Virus record (IMG/VR): IMGVR_UViG_3300037247_000994
Span: 1 to 20,976 of that record
DNA length: 20,976 bases
Reading direction: 5' to 3' (one strand)
DNA from: a virus
Part shown: in pieces, positions 253-7,231 of the stretch
How the letters are laid out: each line of letters starts with the position of its first letter
Numbering within the stretch: the first letter of the stretch is position 1
The notes under the pieces: generated by a model
Told to the model about the DNA's origin: nothing
The model's database searches: none
What the model saw: only the letters and a program-made list of their open reading frames with translations
Translations under genes and position numbers: made by a program

Positions 253-1608
253 CTACACCCTCGGCACCCGCTCGCTCTCACGGCCGATGACCTCGATGGC
301 GCGCACCTCGCCCACCGTCGCCAGATGGATGCGAGTCTGCTGCGTCTTGCGGCGCTTCGGATGCATGAACATGATGTCCTGGCTCGGTAGGTTGGCGGTC
401 GGGCGGCTGCCCTCTAGCACCTGTGGGGACGGGCCGACGAAGCAGCCGTTCTGGATGACCTCGCCGCCAATCTCGTCCTCGGCAGACTCGGCGGTGTGCA
501 GGTGGCCCTTGCACATGAAGTTGACGACCTCACCGACCACCGCGTTCATATGCAGTTTGTTGTCGAAGGCTCCCGTGTATGTCCGGCGCAAGCCGCCGAT
601 CTTGTGCCCGTGACGGAGGTAGAACGACCAGCCCTCGATTTCCGTCATGAGGAAGAACGGCCGGGCAATGTGGAAGTCCACCATACCGCCCACCAGCGAC
701 ATGACGCCCGCCGGGGACGTATACTTGTCCGCGCCCTCGCCGTACTCGATCCACGCACCGCCGGTCTGCTTCGATACAGCCTCGGCGATAAGCTGCCACG
801 CCCACAACTCCATGTTGTCCGGGCCGTAGGACTCGCGGTCACGGGCGGTGATGCGGCCGTGATTGCCGCGCACCTTCAGCCACACGGAATGCTCGAATCG
901 CTGCGTGAGGTCGAGGATGATCTGGGTCATGTCCACCACGAACCCCGCGACCTGGCGCTCCGCCGATACCTCCATCTGGATGCCCTGCGAGGGGAACATC
1001 AGCCCGTGGCCCTCGAAGTCGTCTCCGAGCGCCAGTCCGTAGAAGCGCGGCACCTTCATGAAAATCTGCCGCATCTGCGCGAATCGCAGCAAGCCATCTC
1101 GCCACCGGCAGAGCCGTTCGCGGGCCAGGTCGATGTTGTACTCGCCGATACCGCCGCTGACCTTTCGGTCGATCTGGGAGCCATAGTGCAGGTCGGAGAA
1201 TAGCGCCACCATCGACTCCGGCGTATCGAATCCCATCTCCTCAATCCGCGTCGCCTTGATGTGATCAGGCACCGCCCGTAGGCTGTCAGCGCTTTCCAAG
1301 ATCAGGCCGCGCAATTCCTCACGGCGCTCCGTCTCCTGCTCCTCACGGGACGGCGGCTTGTCCTTCACCTCGAAGGGCTGGCCCTGAACGCGCTTGCGCT
1401 TGAGCACATCCCGAATGATGTCCCGCGACAGGTCGATCCCATAATCCTTGCCGGAGAACGCCTGGTTCACCGCGGCCGCCACACCATCATAGTTGGCGTG
1501 CTCAGGCGCAGCGCCTTCGGCGAGAACGCGAATGTGGGCACGCACAAGCTCCCGTAGCTCTTGTGGCATATCACGGAGACGGGTGTACATCAGCTTAGCC
1601 ATGCTCAT
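253..1608 (-). CDS. Calcineurin-like metallophosphoesterase with N-terminal extension
   Basis: A 451-residue protein with the dimetal phosphoesterase signature in order: S-D139-L-H141, G195-D-D, G248-N-H, an HGH near 333 and G368-H-L-H. The first ~125 residues precede the catalytic fold and are predicted mostly helical and charged, possibly a small helical DNA-binding-like region. I chose ATG 1608 because it gives an ATGA overlap with the upstream resolvase stop and has GGGAG just upstream; the in-frame start at 1641 would overlap the resolvase by 37 bases. It is separate from the Mre11 homologue at 5317-6294 and has no Rad50 gene beside it. The substrate could be DNA ends, a cyclic nucleotide or a phosphomonoester; the sequence does not decide. 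The fold assignment is strong. Confidence 0.88.
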   Translation of the reverse strand: MSMAKLMYTRLRDMPQELRELVRAHIRVLAEGAAPEHANYDGVAAAVNQAFSGKDYGIDLSRDIIRDVLKRKRVQGQPFEVKDKPPSREEQETERREELRGLILESADSLRAVPDHIKATRIEEMGFDTPESMVALFSDLHYGSQIDRKVSGGIGEYNIDLARERLCRWRDGLLRFAQMRQIFMKVPRFYGLALGDDFEGHGLMFPSQGIQMEVSAERQVAGFVVDMTQIILDLTQRFEHSVWLKVRGNHGRITARDRESYGPDNMELWAWQLIAEAVSKQTGGAWIEYGEGADKYTSPAGVMSLVGGMVDFHIARPFFLMTEIEGWSFYLRHGHKIGGLRRTYTGAFDNKLHMNAVVGEVVNFMCKGHLHTAESAEDEIGGEVIQNGCFVGPSPQVLEGSRPTANLPSQDIMFMHPKRRKTQQTRIHLATVGEVRAIEVIGRESERVPRV

Positions 1609-2084
1609 TCTCCCTTCGGTGGTACGTTGTTGCAGCCCCACGCCGCAATGCAGGCGGCGTCGTAGGCGTCCTGCGGCTGATCGGCTGGCACCCCTAGCAC
1701 CTTCTGTGCGTAGGCGGCGATTTCTTCCTTCGAGGCATTGCTACCGCCGAGCAGCCCTTTCTTCCAGATGGTGTTATCGATCAGCGAATGATCGATCTTC
1801 CGCCGCCAGAGGTACGACCGGATGATGCCCACCACCTGGGCCTGGTCGCGGAGGGCCTTGGCATTGGTCTTCCCCCGAAACTGTGCCAGCACCGGGGTCT
1901 CGACATAGACCCATCGCACTCCCTGCCAGATGACCGGCGAATCTTCGAGTAGTGCCGCGAGCGCCTGAATTCGGTCTTCGGCTCTGCGCCCGGCGGCCTG
2001 AAGGCGATAGATGTTCGGCCCGCCGTCGTCCAGCACCACGATCTGAATCGCCTTCGTGTCTGGGTCGATGCCCGCAATCCTCAT
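1605..2084 (-). CDS. RuvC-like Holliday junction resolvase
   Basis: A 159-residue protein of typical RuvC length. It opens with the RNase H-fold strand R-I-A-G-I-D7-P-D-T and carries the second acidic residue in V-Y-V-E62-T-P and the third and fourth in D139-A-Y-D142. These are the four metal-binding carboxylates of RuvC-type resolvases. The expected role is cutting four-way or branched DNA made by recombination, to clear the genome for packaging. It shares ATGA-type overlaps with the genes on both sides (2081-2084 and 1605-1608), so it is likely translated in a coupled way. Family membership is clear; whether it prefers Holliday junctions or replication forks is not visible. Confidence 0.88.
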   Translation of the reverse strand: MRIAGIDPDTKAIQIVVLDDGGPNIYRLQAAGRRAEDRIQALAALLEDSPVIWQGVRWVYVETPVLAQFRGKTNAKALRDQAQVVGIIRSYLWRRKIDHSLIDNTIWKKGLLGGSNASKEEIAAYAQKVLGVPADQPQDAYDAACIAAWGCNNVPPKGE

Positions 2085-3461: not shown

Positions 3462-3935
3462 ATGAGATGCACCAATTGCAGCAAAGAACGCGATACAGCG
3501 TCGAAACTGTGTGAGCAATGCCGCGAGACGAGTCAACGTGCCTCGCAACGACATCGGGATAAACTGGCAGCGGCTGGGCTGTGCCGGGACTGTGGCCAAC
3601 AGGAATTGTCCTCCAAAAAATACTGCGCGATCTGCCTGCAAAAAAGGGCCGAAGCGGGCCATCGCCTTCGACAGCAAGTCATGGAAGCCTATGGCGGACG
3701 ATGCGTCTGCTGTGACGAGACGGACTGGCGGTTTCTCACCATTGACCATACCGAAGACAATGGGGCCGAGCATCGCCGACAGATCGGCCCAGGAGGAGCC
3801 AACTTGTATCGCTTCCTCCGGGACAATAATTGGCCGCGCGAAGGTTTTCAAGTGCTCTGCGCCAATTGCAATGTAGCTAAGCATCAGTTTGGTTTTTGCC
3901 CTCACCAGGATTCTTCAGCACCTCAACTTCGGTAA
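3462..3935 (+). CDS. Zinc-rich HNH endonuclease, only plus-strand gene
   Basis: A 157-residue protein with five CxxC pairs (C3/C6, C17/C20, C41/C44, C55/C58, C81/C84), then the HNH core: F-L-T-I-D95-H96, and C133-A-N-C-N with a trailing His. This layout, zinc knuckles followed by C-x2-C, DH and CxNCN, matches small phage HNH proteins that are often free-standing homing-type nucleases. It has its own promoter and no Shine-Dalgarno sequence, and it lies against all neighbours in direction. Its last 59 bases overlap the 3' end of the Rad50 C-terminal gene tail to tail. It looks like an inserted cassette. It presumably nicks or cuts DNA; the target is unknown. Confidence 0.85.
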   Translation: MRCTNCSKERDTASKLCEQCRETSQRASQRHRDKLAAAGLCRDCGQQELSSKKYCAICLQKRAEAGHRLRQQVMEAYGGRCVCCDETDWRFLTIDHTEDNGAEHRRQIGPGGANLYRFLRDNNWPREGFQVLCANCNVAKHQFGFCPHQDSSAPQLR

Positions 3936-4578
3936 CGGCTCGCGCCACACGAAATCTATAAGCCGCGTCCGCCGCGTCTACATACTCTGGTTCTTGAGTA
4001 ACCATCAACAATTGGAAGCCGAGCCGATCAATGAGCGCGGCCATCATCTCCGCCAATGGATGACGGAACTCGATGCTGAGGTGGGCGAACGGCTCGTCCA
4101 GGACGAGTACGAGCCGCAACAGCGGCCGGGAGGCCATGATCAACAGGACGCGGAGCAGGAAGGCAATGATGCCGATGTAGCCGCCACCCTGGCCCGTCAT
4201 GACGTCTTCCTCCTGCCCGTCCTTGATGAGCACAAATTCCACGGCGCTCATATCCGCCTTCGTTGATGGCCTAATCTGTAGTTGTAGCTCCTCGCCGAAC
4301 ACGTGAGACAGACCCTCGGAGACGATGGCCTCGGTCGACTTCTGGAACTTGCGCTGCCAGACCTGCTCCATCCCCTGAAGCCGGTCGAGGACGGTGCGCA
4401 GAATCTCGGCCTCATCGCCAGTCGCGGTGACGCGCTCCTCGGCCTCGGCGAGCGTGGCGGCAATCGCCTCCCGCGCACCTTCGTGCCGGGCCAGTTCCTG
4501 GTTGAGCGTGGTGAGACGCGCCTGGAGCCGGGCCGCGATCTCGGCGACCTCAAGCAAGGACGGATTCGGCTTCGTCAA
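3877..4578 (-). CDS. Rad50/SbcC-like ATPase, C-terminal half
   Basis: A 233-residue protein that is only the second half of a Rad50-type SMC ATPase. Residues ~8-90 form a coiled coil; then come the ABC signature region (T128-G-Q-G-G-G followed by a hydrophobic helix), Walker B with LRLVLVLD161-E162-P and a D-loop, and an H-loop position where VTQEPEYV has Gln in place of the usual His. No Walker A is present; that sits in the gene at 6284-7231. The start is TTG 4578, with GGAGGG six bases upstream, overlapping the preceding coil gene by 29 bases. The C-terminal ~12 residues overlap the convergent HNH gene and may have been altered by its arrival. Expected to pair with the N-terminal half and Mre11 in end resection. 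Confidence 0.85.
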   Translation of the reverse strand: MTKPNPSLLEVAEIAARLQARLTTLNQELARHEGAREAIAATLAEAEERVTATGDEAEILRTVLDRLQGMEQVWQRKFQKSTEAIVSEGLSHVFGEELQLQIRPSTKADMSAVEFVLIKDGQEEDVMTGQGGGYIGIIAFLLRVLLIMASRPLLRLVLVLDEPFAHLSIEFRHPLAEMMAALIDRLGFQLLMVTQEPEYVDAADAAYRFRVARAVTEVEVLKNPGEGKNQTDA

Positions 4579-4810
4579 GCTGTCCCTCCAATTGCCCTAG
4601 GTCTTCCCGGATGCTTTCGATCAGTCGGTTCTCCTGGCGCTCTAGATCGCGGTCAGGATCGAGACCTAGTTGCTCGATGGCGTCGTCAGCGGCGGTCAAC
4701 TGATCCTCGGCCGCCTTCTTCTTCGTGCGCGCCTCGGTCGTGCGCGTCTTGGCGCGGTCGACGCGCTGGCGCAGATCGAGTACCTGTTGGGTTGGATCAT
4801 CTTTAGCCAT
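4550..4810 (-). CDS. Small coiled-coil protein, probable Rad50 coil segment
   Basis: An 86-residue, highly charged, almost entirely helical protein with heptad-like spacing (QQVLDLRQRVDRAK; LERQENRLIESIREDLGQLE), broken near residue 48 by LGLDPDRD. I place the start at ATG 4810 because GGAGGG lies six bases upstream; the longer reading to 4897 has no such site. It sits directly before and overlaps the Rad50 C-terminal half. The natural reading is that it supplies part of the descending coiled-coil arm missing from the split ATPase, or bridges the two halves. That role is inference; coil character is directly visible. Confidence 0.72.
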   Translation of the reverse strand: MAKDDPTQQVLDLRQRVDRAKTRTTEARTKKKAAEDQLTAADDAIEQLGLDPDRDLERQENRLIESIREDLGQLEGQLDEAESVLA

Positions 4811-5051
4811 AAACACCCTCCGGGCCGTGGCGGCGGCCATCACGCACATTGAACCCCCCGTGGCCGGTCGTTGGCGCGTGCCCCGCGTCCAAATCATAGC
4901 AGCACCGGGCTCCTAGCCGCTTGGCCTCATCGCGGAGAGCGATGCCGCACTCGTTGCACCATTCCACACGCTTGCCGCCGATCATGTCCCAGACACACTC
5001 GCCTGTCGGACACGGGTTCTCCGGGAATTCCGTCGGATCATGATGAGGCAT
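4803..5051 (-). CDS. Small Cys-rich zinc-finger-like protein
   Basis: An 82-residue protein with C14 and C19 (NPCPTGECVWD), W-C-N-E-C-G at about residues 31-36, and a C-C pair near residue 51, enough for one or two zinc sites. The C-terminal third is Gly- and His-rich and probably flexible. ATG 5051 has GGAGG seven bases upstream. Its start overlaps the end of the previous zinc protein and its stop overlaps the start of the coil protein at 4810. No family is recognised. Its place between Mre11 and the Rad50 C-terminal half suggests an accessory part of that complex, which is inference. Confidence 0.72.
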   Translation of the reverse strand: MPHHDPTEFPENPCPTGECVWDMIGGKRVEWCNECGIALRDEAKRLGARCCYDLDAGHAPTTGHGGFNVRDGRRHGPEGVYG

Positions 5052-5316
5052 TGATCGGCCTCCGTTCCTCGGCCCGGCAGTCCTGGCAGCGGTCGCCGTC
5101 TTTCTCTACCAGTTCATCGCAAGACCGGCAACCAAAACCCTTGCCGTCACGACACGCCTCACAATAGAGCTTGTCCCCGACCACAAGCCAATCGCAGTCG
5201 GTGGCGTGCCCCTGTGCCTTTTCAGGACTGGGGTGATGAACGATGTAGTCGGTTTCAAGCTCCTCGCCGCAGCCATCACAAACTGCGATGTAGCAAGTCA
5301 TCTTCGGCGTGGCCAT
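5038..5316 (-). CDS. Small multi-zinc-finger protein
   Basis: A 92-residue protein with four Cys pairs: CDGC, CEAC, CRSC and CQDC, plus a single C near residue 41. The first half resembles a treble-clef-like knuckle (VCDGCGEELETDY), the second half two close rubredoxin-like knuckles. ATG 5316 directly abuts the Mre11 stop at 5317 and has GGAGGAGG upstream. It is most likely a DNA- or protein-binding adaptor. I cannot assign a named family. Its neighbours on both sides belong to the Mre11-Rad50 group. Confidence 0.78.
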   Translation of the reverse strand: MATPKMTCYIAVCDGCGEELETDYIVHHPSPEKAQGHATDCDWLVVGDKLYCEACRDGKGFGCRSCDELVEKDGDRCQDCRAEERRPINASS

Positions 5317-6294
5317 CTAGTCCTCCTCCGCTTTCGTCAGATAGTACCTCAGCCGCGCGACGACCTCCTTCGGATCGTCCTTGGTGTATCGAGCAATTAG
5401 CTCCTCCAGCGGCGTCTCTTCTAGCTCCAGGGACGAGGCCAAGTTCTCGGCGAAGTCCCCAAGCTGCCGCTCCGGGGCCACCTCCTGGTCGAAGAATACC
5501 TCCTCGGCCGGGCGGGCGGACATGAGCGGGTGCCGCTCGAACTCGATCTCACCATGATCGAGCGTTACAGTCAATACCTCCGGTCGCCGCTCCAGATTGT
5601 GCTTGGTGCGCTCAACGCGGGCGACACTGCCAATGTTGGCGTACCAGCAACCGGACGGCAACTGATGGATGCCCAGGTCTCGATGATCATGCCCGCACAA
5701 GAGCACGTGCAGCAATTCGGTCGGCAGCTTGTCGGCATTGTGGTGCGGATAGATGGCGTCCTGGCCCGGCGGCAGAATCATAGCATGGGCAACCATGATC
5801 GTGTACCCGTTCTTGGGCCGCATCGCTACCTCGTCCTTCTTGAGCTTGAAGATGTTCGAAAGGTTGTCAATGTACGGCTCCCAATTTCGGGGCACGAGCA
5901 GCACCTTCTCGCCGCCCTTGACGGGCTCGATGACACGGGCTTCATCCAACCAATTGAGCGCGCCTGACTTGACCATGACACCGAACGGCATAGTGAATGC
6001 CGAGTCCGCGCCGGAATAGGAGAAGTCATGGTTGCCGCCAACACCGTAAATCTCGCAGGGCCGTCGCCGGTACAAGTCCACGAGCCGCACCAGCAGCCGG
6101 TTGATGTTGACGACGCCCCGGAACTTGTGGAACCAGTCGCCGGTGTCGACGATGAAGTCACAGCCGGTGCGGTCAGCGATGTCGAACGTCTCCTCCTGCT
6201 TGGCCAGAATGTCGTCCATGTAGGACTCCGTGCGGCCGAGCGGTGGCCGGTCGGCGTTGTGCAAGTCGTTCCTGACAAGGAACTTAATGCTCAT
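5317..6294 (-). CDS. Mre11/SbcD-like DNA exonuclease (gp47-type)
   Basis: A 325-residue metallophosphoesterase with the Mre11 motif series: R-N-D10-L-H12, G52-D-W-F-H-K, G87-N-H-D, V-A-H170-A and G201-H-D-H204. Together with a Rad50 homologue, such proteins resect DNA ends to expose single strands for RecA loading; T4 gp47 is the phage prototype. I chose ATG 6294, giving MSIKFLVRNDLH and an 11-base overlap with the Rad50 N-terminal gene; the ATG at 6321 adds nine basic residues with less support. The usual Ser of the SDxH motif is Asn here. It sits between the two separated halves of Rad50, an arrangement I do not know from standard phages. Confidence 0.88.
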   Translation of the reverse strand: MSIKFLVRNDLHNADRPPLGRTESYMDDILAKQEETFDIADRTGCDFIVDTGDWFHKFRGVVNINRLLVRLVDLYRRRPCEIYGVGGNHDFSYSGADSAFTMPFGVMVKSGALNWLDEARVIEPVKGGEKVLLVPRNWEPYIDNLSNIFKLKKDEVAMRPKNGYTIMVAHAMILPPGQDAIYPHHNADKLPTELLHVLLCGHDHRDLGIHQLPSGCWYANIGSVARVERTKHNLERRPEVLTVTLDHGEIEFERHPLMSARPAEEVFFDQEVAPERQLGDFAENLASSLELEETPLEELIARYTKDDPKEVVARLRYYLTKAEED

Positions 6295-7231
6295 GTTCCC
6301 CCCACGTTTCCGTCGAGCCACAGAGCGGGCAAGCTCCTAGCTCCTTCACCAGCGCGTTGTACTGATCCTCGACAGCCACGAGCGCGATTCGGGCCTCCTC
6401 GACCTCCTGCTCCGCTGCCTCGGCCGCCTCCCCGCGTTCCCGCGCGTCAATCACCGCGTTCACCACGTCATCCAGCACGGCCACGCGCTCCGACAGGACT
6501 TCAATCTCCTCCATTCGCGGGAGAGTCAAGTCGGCGATGAGCAGGGAACCGGCGATGTCTTGAACAATGTCGTCGGCCTGCCTGACGATGCCAAGTTGCC
6601 GATCAATGGTGCGCATCAACTTATTGGCCCGCTCCATAACATTGCGGACACGCCGCACATTCGGCAATTCACCAAGCTGCGCCTTTACTCGCTCGACCTC
6701 CGCCTCGGCCGTTGTGTGATCGCGCTCGACGCGCTTCAGATCGCGGCGGCAGTCCATCTGCCCCTCCACCAGCACCGAGAGCTTGGTGAGCTTGGCCAAG
6801 GCGCGGGCGGCGAGCGTCGAGGATTCAGTGAGGAGCAGCGGCGGGTCGTGCTGTGACTGGAATTGAGGCGTGAAGGACACGCTCTTGTCGATCTCGATCC
6901 GCCGAATGCCCAGCGTATTCGTGATCTCCTCCGGCACCGCGCGGCCAACGCGCGTGTACACTTGGTCATCAGATGTGTAAGTCGCGCCCTTGTCGCGGGG
7001 CTTCTCCCACTCGACCGTCTTGCCGCCGTCGAGCGTGAGCCGCACCCCCGCCTTCTGCTGCTTGTGACGGATGAAGCGTTGCCCCACTTGGTTGAAGCAG
7101 AGTCCTTTGAGCGAGCGGATCAAGGAGGACTTGCCGTTGCCGCTCGGCCCCACGATCACCGTGAAGCGGCCGAGCAGCAGGTCAATGTCCTCAAGGGACT
7201 GGTAGTCCCGTACCTCGATCCGTTCGAGCAC
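6284..7231 (-). CDS. Rad50/SbcC-like ATPase, N-terminal half ending at the zinc hook
   Basis: A 315-residue protein that starts like Rad50/SbcC: a strand-rich lobe with Walker A G28-P-S-G-N-G-K-S-S, a Q-loop region around FTPQFQSQHD, then about 130 residues of coiled coil (residues ~165-295). It ends with C301-P-L-C304-G, the zinc-hook motif found at the apex of the Rad50 arm, only 11 residues before the stop. No signature or Walker B motif follows; these lie in the gene at 3877-4578. The start is GTG 7231, adjoining the upstream stop, with GGAG about nine bases before it. Length is about half of a normal Rad50. The clean end after the hook argues for a true split and not a sequencing error. 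Confidence 0.87.
   Translation of the reverse strand: MLERIEVRDYQSLEDIDLLLGRFTVIVGPSGNGKSSLIRSLKGLCFNQVGQRFIRHKQQKAGVRLTLDGGKTVEWEKPRDKGATYTSDDQVYTRVGRAVPEEITNTLGIRRIEIDKSVSFTPQFQSQHDPPLLLTESSTLAARALAKLTKLSVLVEGQMDCRRDLKRVERDHTTAEAEVERVKAQLGELPNVRRVRNVMERANKLMRTIDRQLGIVRQADDIVQDIAGSLLIADLTLPRMEEIEVLSERVAVLDDVVNAVIDARERGEAAEAAEQEVEEARIALVAVEDQYNALVKELGACPLCGSTETWGEHEH

Follow-up and report, generated by a model that had tools for sequence, protein, structure and literature searches.

A probable three-polypeptide Rad50 encoded beside Mre11 in phages and Bacillota

Textbooks present the DNA-break repair protein Rad50 and its SMC relatives as single chains that fold back on themselves. In the Mre11–Rad50 and SbcD–SbcC systems (Escherichia coli SbcCD, the archaeal and eukaryotic Mre11–Rad50 complexes and T4 gp47–gp46), a calcineurin-type nuclease stands beside an ATP-binding cassette (ABC) ATPase made up of a Walker A lobe, a coil, a CxxC hook and a Walker B lobe. 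Here, we describe a locus of this kind in IMG/VR virus record IMGVR_UViG_3300037247_000994, all 20,976 bases of which (completeness unstated) were analyzed and are referred to below as the window. Unlike the Rad50 or SbcC of the systems named above, the Rad50 of this locus would consist of three polypeptides, termed N (Rad50-N), E and C (Rad50-C); its signature has GGG for LSGG, and its hook ends a chain.

The crystallized Rad50 of Pyrococcus furiosus (1f2t, 1f2u and 1ii8) likewise has a head of separate N and C chains and is among the best fold matches of the proteins described here; its separate chains were made in the laboratory by truncating a protein that is naturally a single chain. Mre11/Rad50 fusion proteins (Mimivirus R555 and others) are a known unusual layout across phages, plasmids and bacteria (PMC3175470); these fusions join Mre11 to Rad50, whereas here Rad50 itself is cut, and Mre11 and Rad50 occupy separate genes in the window. 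The accessible text of PMC7824862 describes split DNA polymerase III and RNA polymerase subunits in jumbo phages, in which SbcC and SbcD are near universal. The present case is similar in that one cellular enzyme is encoded in pieces in phages, but the same text contains no split SbcC among jumbo phages, and the split form reported here is also found on bacterial chromosomes. PHROG families 16465 (exonuclease), 18563 (unknown) and 15167 (ATPase) match N, E and C, respectively, and are not described there as parts of one protein. A literature search, which did not cover subscription papers and preprints, turned up no account of a Rad50 or SbcC split in this way.

Rad50 pieces and Mre11 in the window

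The minus strand of the window encodes a phage module for replication and recombination, which comprises an exonuclease, a RuvC-like resolvase, SSB, a RecA-type recombinase, a primase/helicase, methyltransferases and a helicase. Within it, the genes follow the order RecA-type gene, one small open reading frame (ORF), Rad50-N, Mre11, two Cys-rich ORFs, E and Rad50-C; Rad50-N, Mre11, E and Rad50-C are on the minus strand. Reading frames and coordinates for Rad50-N and the genes that follow it agree with a first-pass annotation, which had placed Mre11, two Cys-rich proteins and an 86-residue coil protein between two Rad50 halves.

Rad50-N (6284–7231, 315 amino acids, GTG start) comprises the N-lobe of an ABC ATPase, a Q-loop, a helical arm and a C-terminal zinc hook. 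Its Walker A motif is GPSGNGKS (7127–7150), of which G28, G33 and K34 are invariant across 15 relatives, and its hook motif is CPLC (6320–6331, residues 301–304), 11 residues before the stop. The protein passes the Pfam AAA_23 model (29.2 bits, cut-off 27) and matches phrog_16465 (8e-26); its AlphaFold model matches the Rad50/SMC N-terminal chains 1f2u_C, 1ii8_A and 9a9j_A. The first-pass description of this gene, with a Walker A, a coil and an end 11 residues past CPLC, was thus confirmed by the sequence and the AAA_23 match. Walker A, Q-loop and N-lobe fold are those of Rad50/SbcC, and CxxC follows a helical arm but sits at the end of the chain, whereas the hook of Rad50/SbcC lies between two coil segments. 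In nearly all relatives CxxC is found 3–28 residues from the C-terminal end. The helical part spans ∼130–160 residues in the window (as modeled) and up to ∼300 in other members. The arm in phage Tunturi_5 (L009:6992-8449) contains three tandem units of ∼43 amino acids with an LxVP motif; a tandem repeat was rejected as a general feature of the N arm, being seen only there and in LR745208 (two units).

Rad50-C (3877–4578, 233 amino acids, TTG start) consists of a long N-terminal helix, a GGG-type signature, Walker B and the C-lobe, and its sequence is without Walker A. It matches the archaeal Rad50 model PRK03918 at positions 666–877 of 878 (the last 212 positions, 4e-7) and the Pyrococcus Rad50 C-terminal chains (2e-6), matches that bear out its initial reading as a gene with a coil, signature region and Walker B and no Walker A. 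The Walker B motif, LVLVLDE (4093–4113, D161 and E162 invariant), and the C-lobe fold are those of Rad50/SbcC. QGGG (4180–4191) stands in place of LSGG, and among 16 split C proteins the GGG columns are conserved to at least 90%; the signature, degenerate in the window (GQGGG), is mostly xGGG across the split clade, versus LSGGE in the canonical SbcC rows. The residue at the His-switch is Gln (VTQEPE) in the window clade only, with His in nearly all other split members. In the related locus L091, the two proteins map to either end of the same 878-position Rad50 model, N to positions 3–458 and C to positions 681–876 of PRK03918, and N also matches the Rad50 zinc-hook Pfam family weakly (0.0076).

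The third piece, E (4550–4810), is an 86-amino acid two-helix coil subunit, which matches the 77-position family phrog_18563 (3e-5) and could be aligned with 15 relatives; its counterpart in Bacillus phage vB_BboS-125 (whose N, E and C are gp32, gp34 and gp35) is a 78-amino acid coil protein directly before C. For locus L045 an E–C read-through was modeled, in which the E helices are predicted at residues 3–44 and 49–73 (42 and 25 residues) and C opens with a helix of ∼84 residues, giving ∼150 residues for E and the C helix together. This model matches the Rad50 C-terminal crystal chains 1f2u_B/D and 9a9j_B. E and C are separated by 20 nucleotides or fewer in 85 of 95 loci and overlap in 40. 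In the window, the TTG start of Rad50-C (position 4578) lies within the E gene in a different frame, an arrangement also present in the close IMG/VR relatives L002 and L003, and it is preceded by a ribosome-binding site, GGAGG (4585–4589), which is inside the E gene and conserved in both relatives. A programmed frameshift joining E and C was considered less likely, because C is equipped with a conserved ribosome-binding site and a TTG start of its own and the frame relation varies between loci; separate translation of the two appears more likely.

The Mre11/SbcD-type nuclease gene (5317–6294) starts with an ATG at position 6294, where it overlaps the last bases of Rad50-N. Its product matches Pfam Metallophos (2e-11) and the SbcD-like phrog_100 (3e-7) and carries the DxH, GD, GNHD and GHxH catalytic motifs of the calcineurin-like phosphoesterase of Mre11/SbcD. 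Comparison of the window with L002 and L003 gave ratios of nonsynonymous to synonymous substitution (dN/dS) of 0.09–0.24 for each of N, Mre11, E and C, much like that of the RecA gene, which indicates purifying selection on each of the four.

Recurrence and clade of the split genes

N, E and C are encoded separately in 95 loci, a number that includes about a dozen near-identical prophages and leaves out L119, a single chromosomal copy in which the N frame is broken (109 amino acids, then a 1-kb gap). In none of the 95 do both ATPase lobes lie in a single chain. An Mre11 gene is present in 80, and partnership with an Mre11/SbcD nuclease is in evidence from this genome context only; many of the other 15 are short stretches from which the gene may have been cut off. 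With profiles built from relatives, every stretch of sufficient length showed N, E, C and Mre11 as four distinct genes. The split seen in L002 and L003 recurs in distant relatives (Microbacterium phage Magritte, a 485-kb uncultured phage, Microcystis phage Mvi-JY20, Tunturiibacter phage Tunturi_5 and vB_BboS-125), in Bacillales phages, prophages or chromosomes, and in two huge phages. The search of related phages that the first-pass annotation had proposed returned the same split in L002, L003, Magritte, Mvi-JY20, Tunturi_5 and vB_BboS-125. Single-protein scans with C of L056, L065 and Mvi-JY20 returned no viral relatives, and conserved-block searches with whole-family alignments gave nothing.

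A profile search of 399 Bacillota genomes identified a short separate C in ∼62 and E in about as many, mostly just upstream of C. Searches of this kind missed divergent E genes, and absences from them are weak evidence: they had suggested joint loss of hook and E in Magritte, G404 and G405, an idea rejected when an ORF-by-ORF scan found E in all three. Across the Bacillota genomes and the phage, plasmid and IMG/VR collections, no fused N–E–C protein of the GGG clade was found, so that the check for fused homologues named in the first-pass annotation was negative. Gp57 of Achromobacter phage Motura, a 731-amino acid fused protein, was not counted in the clade on account of its LSGAE signature and internal CETC hook (an assignment by motif, not by tree).

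The lobes of N and C were concatenated and placed in a tree of 79 sequences, in which all split members and three coil-less fusions stood apart from canonical SbcC (Shimodaira–Hasegawa-like approximate likelihood ratio test 97), with the caveats that several branches are long and that the quick method used gives no bootstrap. All split copies form one clade, throughout which xGGG replaces LSGG and the serine of the LSGG-type signature is missing. The split set is not a strict member of Rad50/SbcC, as neither the single chain nor the signature serine is present. The coil-less fusions (L076:2764-4818, L077:3652-5754 and L078:3583-5670) are single chains of 684–700 amino acids that join Mre11 to the Rad50 N-lobe and C-lobe with neither coil nor hook; they lie on bacterial chromosomes beside an addB-like gene and nest within the split chromosomal members.

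Recurrence of the same split in many phages and on bacterial chromosomes beside recA and herA suggests that the three-gene Rad50 is a stable alternative design rather than a broken gene, and this recurrence in ∼95 loci, with purifying selection on N, Mre11, E and C, shows that the layout is not due to chance. The 86-residue coil, included in the set from the outset, was borne out as part of it, a homologue accompanying N and C in phages and bacteria alike. E would thus appear to be a conserved third piece of the split Rad50.

Other genes at these loci were also recorded. An ORF on the plus strand of the window (3462–3935) with an HNH-like Cys/His pattern converges on Rad50-C and overlaps its 3′ end by 59 nucleotides; it has no significant Pfam match to HNH. 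The final residues of Rad50-C differ in L002. In vB_BboS-125 an AP2/HNH-type gene (L012:6584-7156) lies between N and E and may encode a homing endonuclease located where Rad50 is split. In huge-phage relatives a gene resembling a sliding clamp by eye is located between E and C (L008:13124-14257 and L014:7895-9013; also noted for LR745208). L003:9764-12007 is a homologue of the phrog_284 exonuclease of the window (253–1641) and carries an intein-like insert.

Proposed complex and alternative explanations

We consider it probable that these genes encode an Mre11–Rad50 complex with a Rad50 of three polypeptides. N would contribute the Walker A lobe, the ascending helical arm and the CxxC zinc hook at its very C-terminus; C would contribute a long helix and, after it, the signature, Walker B and the C-lobe. 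The two are proposed to associate into one composite ABC head, as the separate Pyrococcus Rad50 N and C chains do in crystals, and the returning arm would be formed by E, adjoining the hook, and the N-terminal helix of C. Two N–E–C units would bind an Mre11 dimer, which would serve as the nuclease, and could be linked at their tips by zinc bound between the CxxC pairs of the N subunits. The complex would process or tether double-strand DNA ends for recombination by the neighboring RecA-type protein; these nuclease and tethering functions are ascribed from family knowledge.

Confidence differs between the parts. That N and C form one head is very highly likely, judged from sequence, models and the Pyrococcus analogy: ABC heads of the Rad50 type are built from both lobes, so that N and C must meet, and the two proteins align with opposite ends of a single Rad50 profile and match Rad50 N and C crystal chains. 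The initial proposal that the arm must be assembled from separate chains is supported and extends to the head, separate genes recurring together with E in phages and bacteria. That E is the hook-distal part of the returning arm is favored with less assurance; E beside the hook and the C helix could form this arm, because their combined length of ∼150 residues roughly matches the N arm of the window. Bridging by zinc in the split lineage is held with moderate confidence.

Several observations weigh against the proposed architecture. The AlphaFold model of N from the window is of low confidence, with a predicted local distance difference test score of 64 and a predicted template modeling score of 0.37. 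The N arm, with up to ∼300 helical residues outside the window, is often longer than E and the C helix together; judged from the models, not every member would have an arm that is a simple hairpin of two strands, and in the longer ones N may double back on itself. The missing signature serine in the whole split clade and the absent His-switch histidine in the window clade indicate that ATP use may differ. Finally, Rad50-N has no cysteine at all in Magritte (L006:8001-9053) and its relative G405 (L150:1324-2385), both of which retain N, E and C; the set can therefore do without the zinc hook, and the presence of E does not depend on it.

A Rad50 in pieces might reflect a frameshift, a break in the assembly or a gene in decay, and the exact operon of the window is present in a single assembled record (20,976 bases). 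The same split with the same cut site in ∼95 loci refutes this reading, and purifying selection on every piece and a C start codon and ribosome-binding site conserved in three relatives leave it practically no probability; the frameshift or assembly break that the first-pass annotation had asked to be checked was excluded in this way. That annotation had also suggested that the two Cys-rich proteins (5038–5316 and 4803–5051) complete or bridge the zinc hook. Both genes lie inside the operon, and the product of one, P0005, resembles a zinc ribbon (weak Pfam evidence; dN/dS 0.32 among three close relatives), but L003 has neither gene, L002 has one, and no such gene separates the Rad50 pieces in distant relatives, although these retain the CxxC of N. 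Because they are not conserved among relatives, the Cys-rich proteins are lineage inserts that need not concern the hook, and the suggestion was not borne out and is highly improbable. An anti-phage or inter-phage defense system is scarcely more probable: N and C show weak similarity to the defense ATPases MAD3, LmuB and GajA, but mainly over shared ATPase parts, and the genes lie among recA, recX, rny and herA on chromosomes and among recombination genes in phages.

Two further alternatives concern how the pieces work together. E may lie outside the Rad50 arm, as a separate adaptor or regulator that binds the N–C–Mre11 complex or another repair protein. It is kept in Magritte and G405, its two predicted helices with a break between them could form a free-standing hairpin, and in LR745208 and L014 the clamp-like gene separates it from C; however, E nearly always adjoins C, often overlapping it, is conserved from cyanophage to Clostridia, and supplies a coil of about the length that C lacks. 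We regard this alternative as possible though unlikely. Alternatively, N and C might form no permanent head and meet only on a signal, the split being a regulatory device that times the ATPase. The altered signature of the whole clade would suit such a device, as would the location of N and C in different genome regions of Tunturi_5 (∼100 kb apart) and Magritte (40–90 kb apart), where co-translation is not needed. The tight operons and ATGA-type overlaps of most members suggest constant joint production instead, and a signal-dependent head is thought improbable. The three-polypeptide complex with a composite head thus remains our preferred reading.

Chromosomal operons and significance

Fourteen chromosomal loci share the order recA–(recX)–M–N–E–C–rny, where M denotes the Mre11 gene. 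In G240 the operon lies between recA–recX and rny–ymdB with mutS and mutL nearby (gene names by reading of the sequences). At other loci the gene before Mre11 encodes a HerA-type ATPase (Pfam HerA central domain, 3e-20), giving herA–M–N–E–C; HerA is a partner of Mre11–Rad50 in archaea (PMC4351679). Chromosomal M–N–E–C operons beside recA/recX/rny or behind a herA-type gene were noted in L091, L098, L105, L122 and L103. Databases label the pieces exonuclease, ATPase, chromosome segregation protein or hypothetical protein; in Alkaliphilus sp. B6464, the one named annotated example examined, both E and C are annotated as hypothetical proteins; its Rad50 pieces and Mre11 have the accessions WP_212382537.1, WP_212382539.1, WP_212382540.1 and WP_212382541.1.

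Of 22 genomes that carry the split set, 3 yielded a canonical full-length SbcC, compared with 6 of 12 genomes that lack the set (Fisher p = 0.04, for a small and partly chosen sample). Since canonical SbcC is rarer in genomes that carry the split set, the split complex may replace it. We find it somewhat easier to accept than to doubt that this is a distinct Mre11–Rad50 lineage with a three-polypeptide Rad50 and a serine-less signature, in which at least one branch would act as a chromosomal repair machine of Clostridia beside recA or herA, the arm could be opened or exchanged at its joints, and one sub-branch would have lost the coil and fused the head to Mre11.

To our knowledge, it is not yet settled how the distant hook and the head communicate in Rad50 and SMC proteins. 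A Rad50 whose chain is naturally interrupted, both at the hook and in the returning arm, would show which connections are dispensable, and the split protein would readily allow head, arm and hook to be tested one at a time. For many Bacillota whose genomes yielded no canonical SbcC, the split set is probably the main Mre11–Rad50 complex, and its probable identity has now been recognized.

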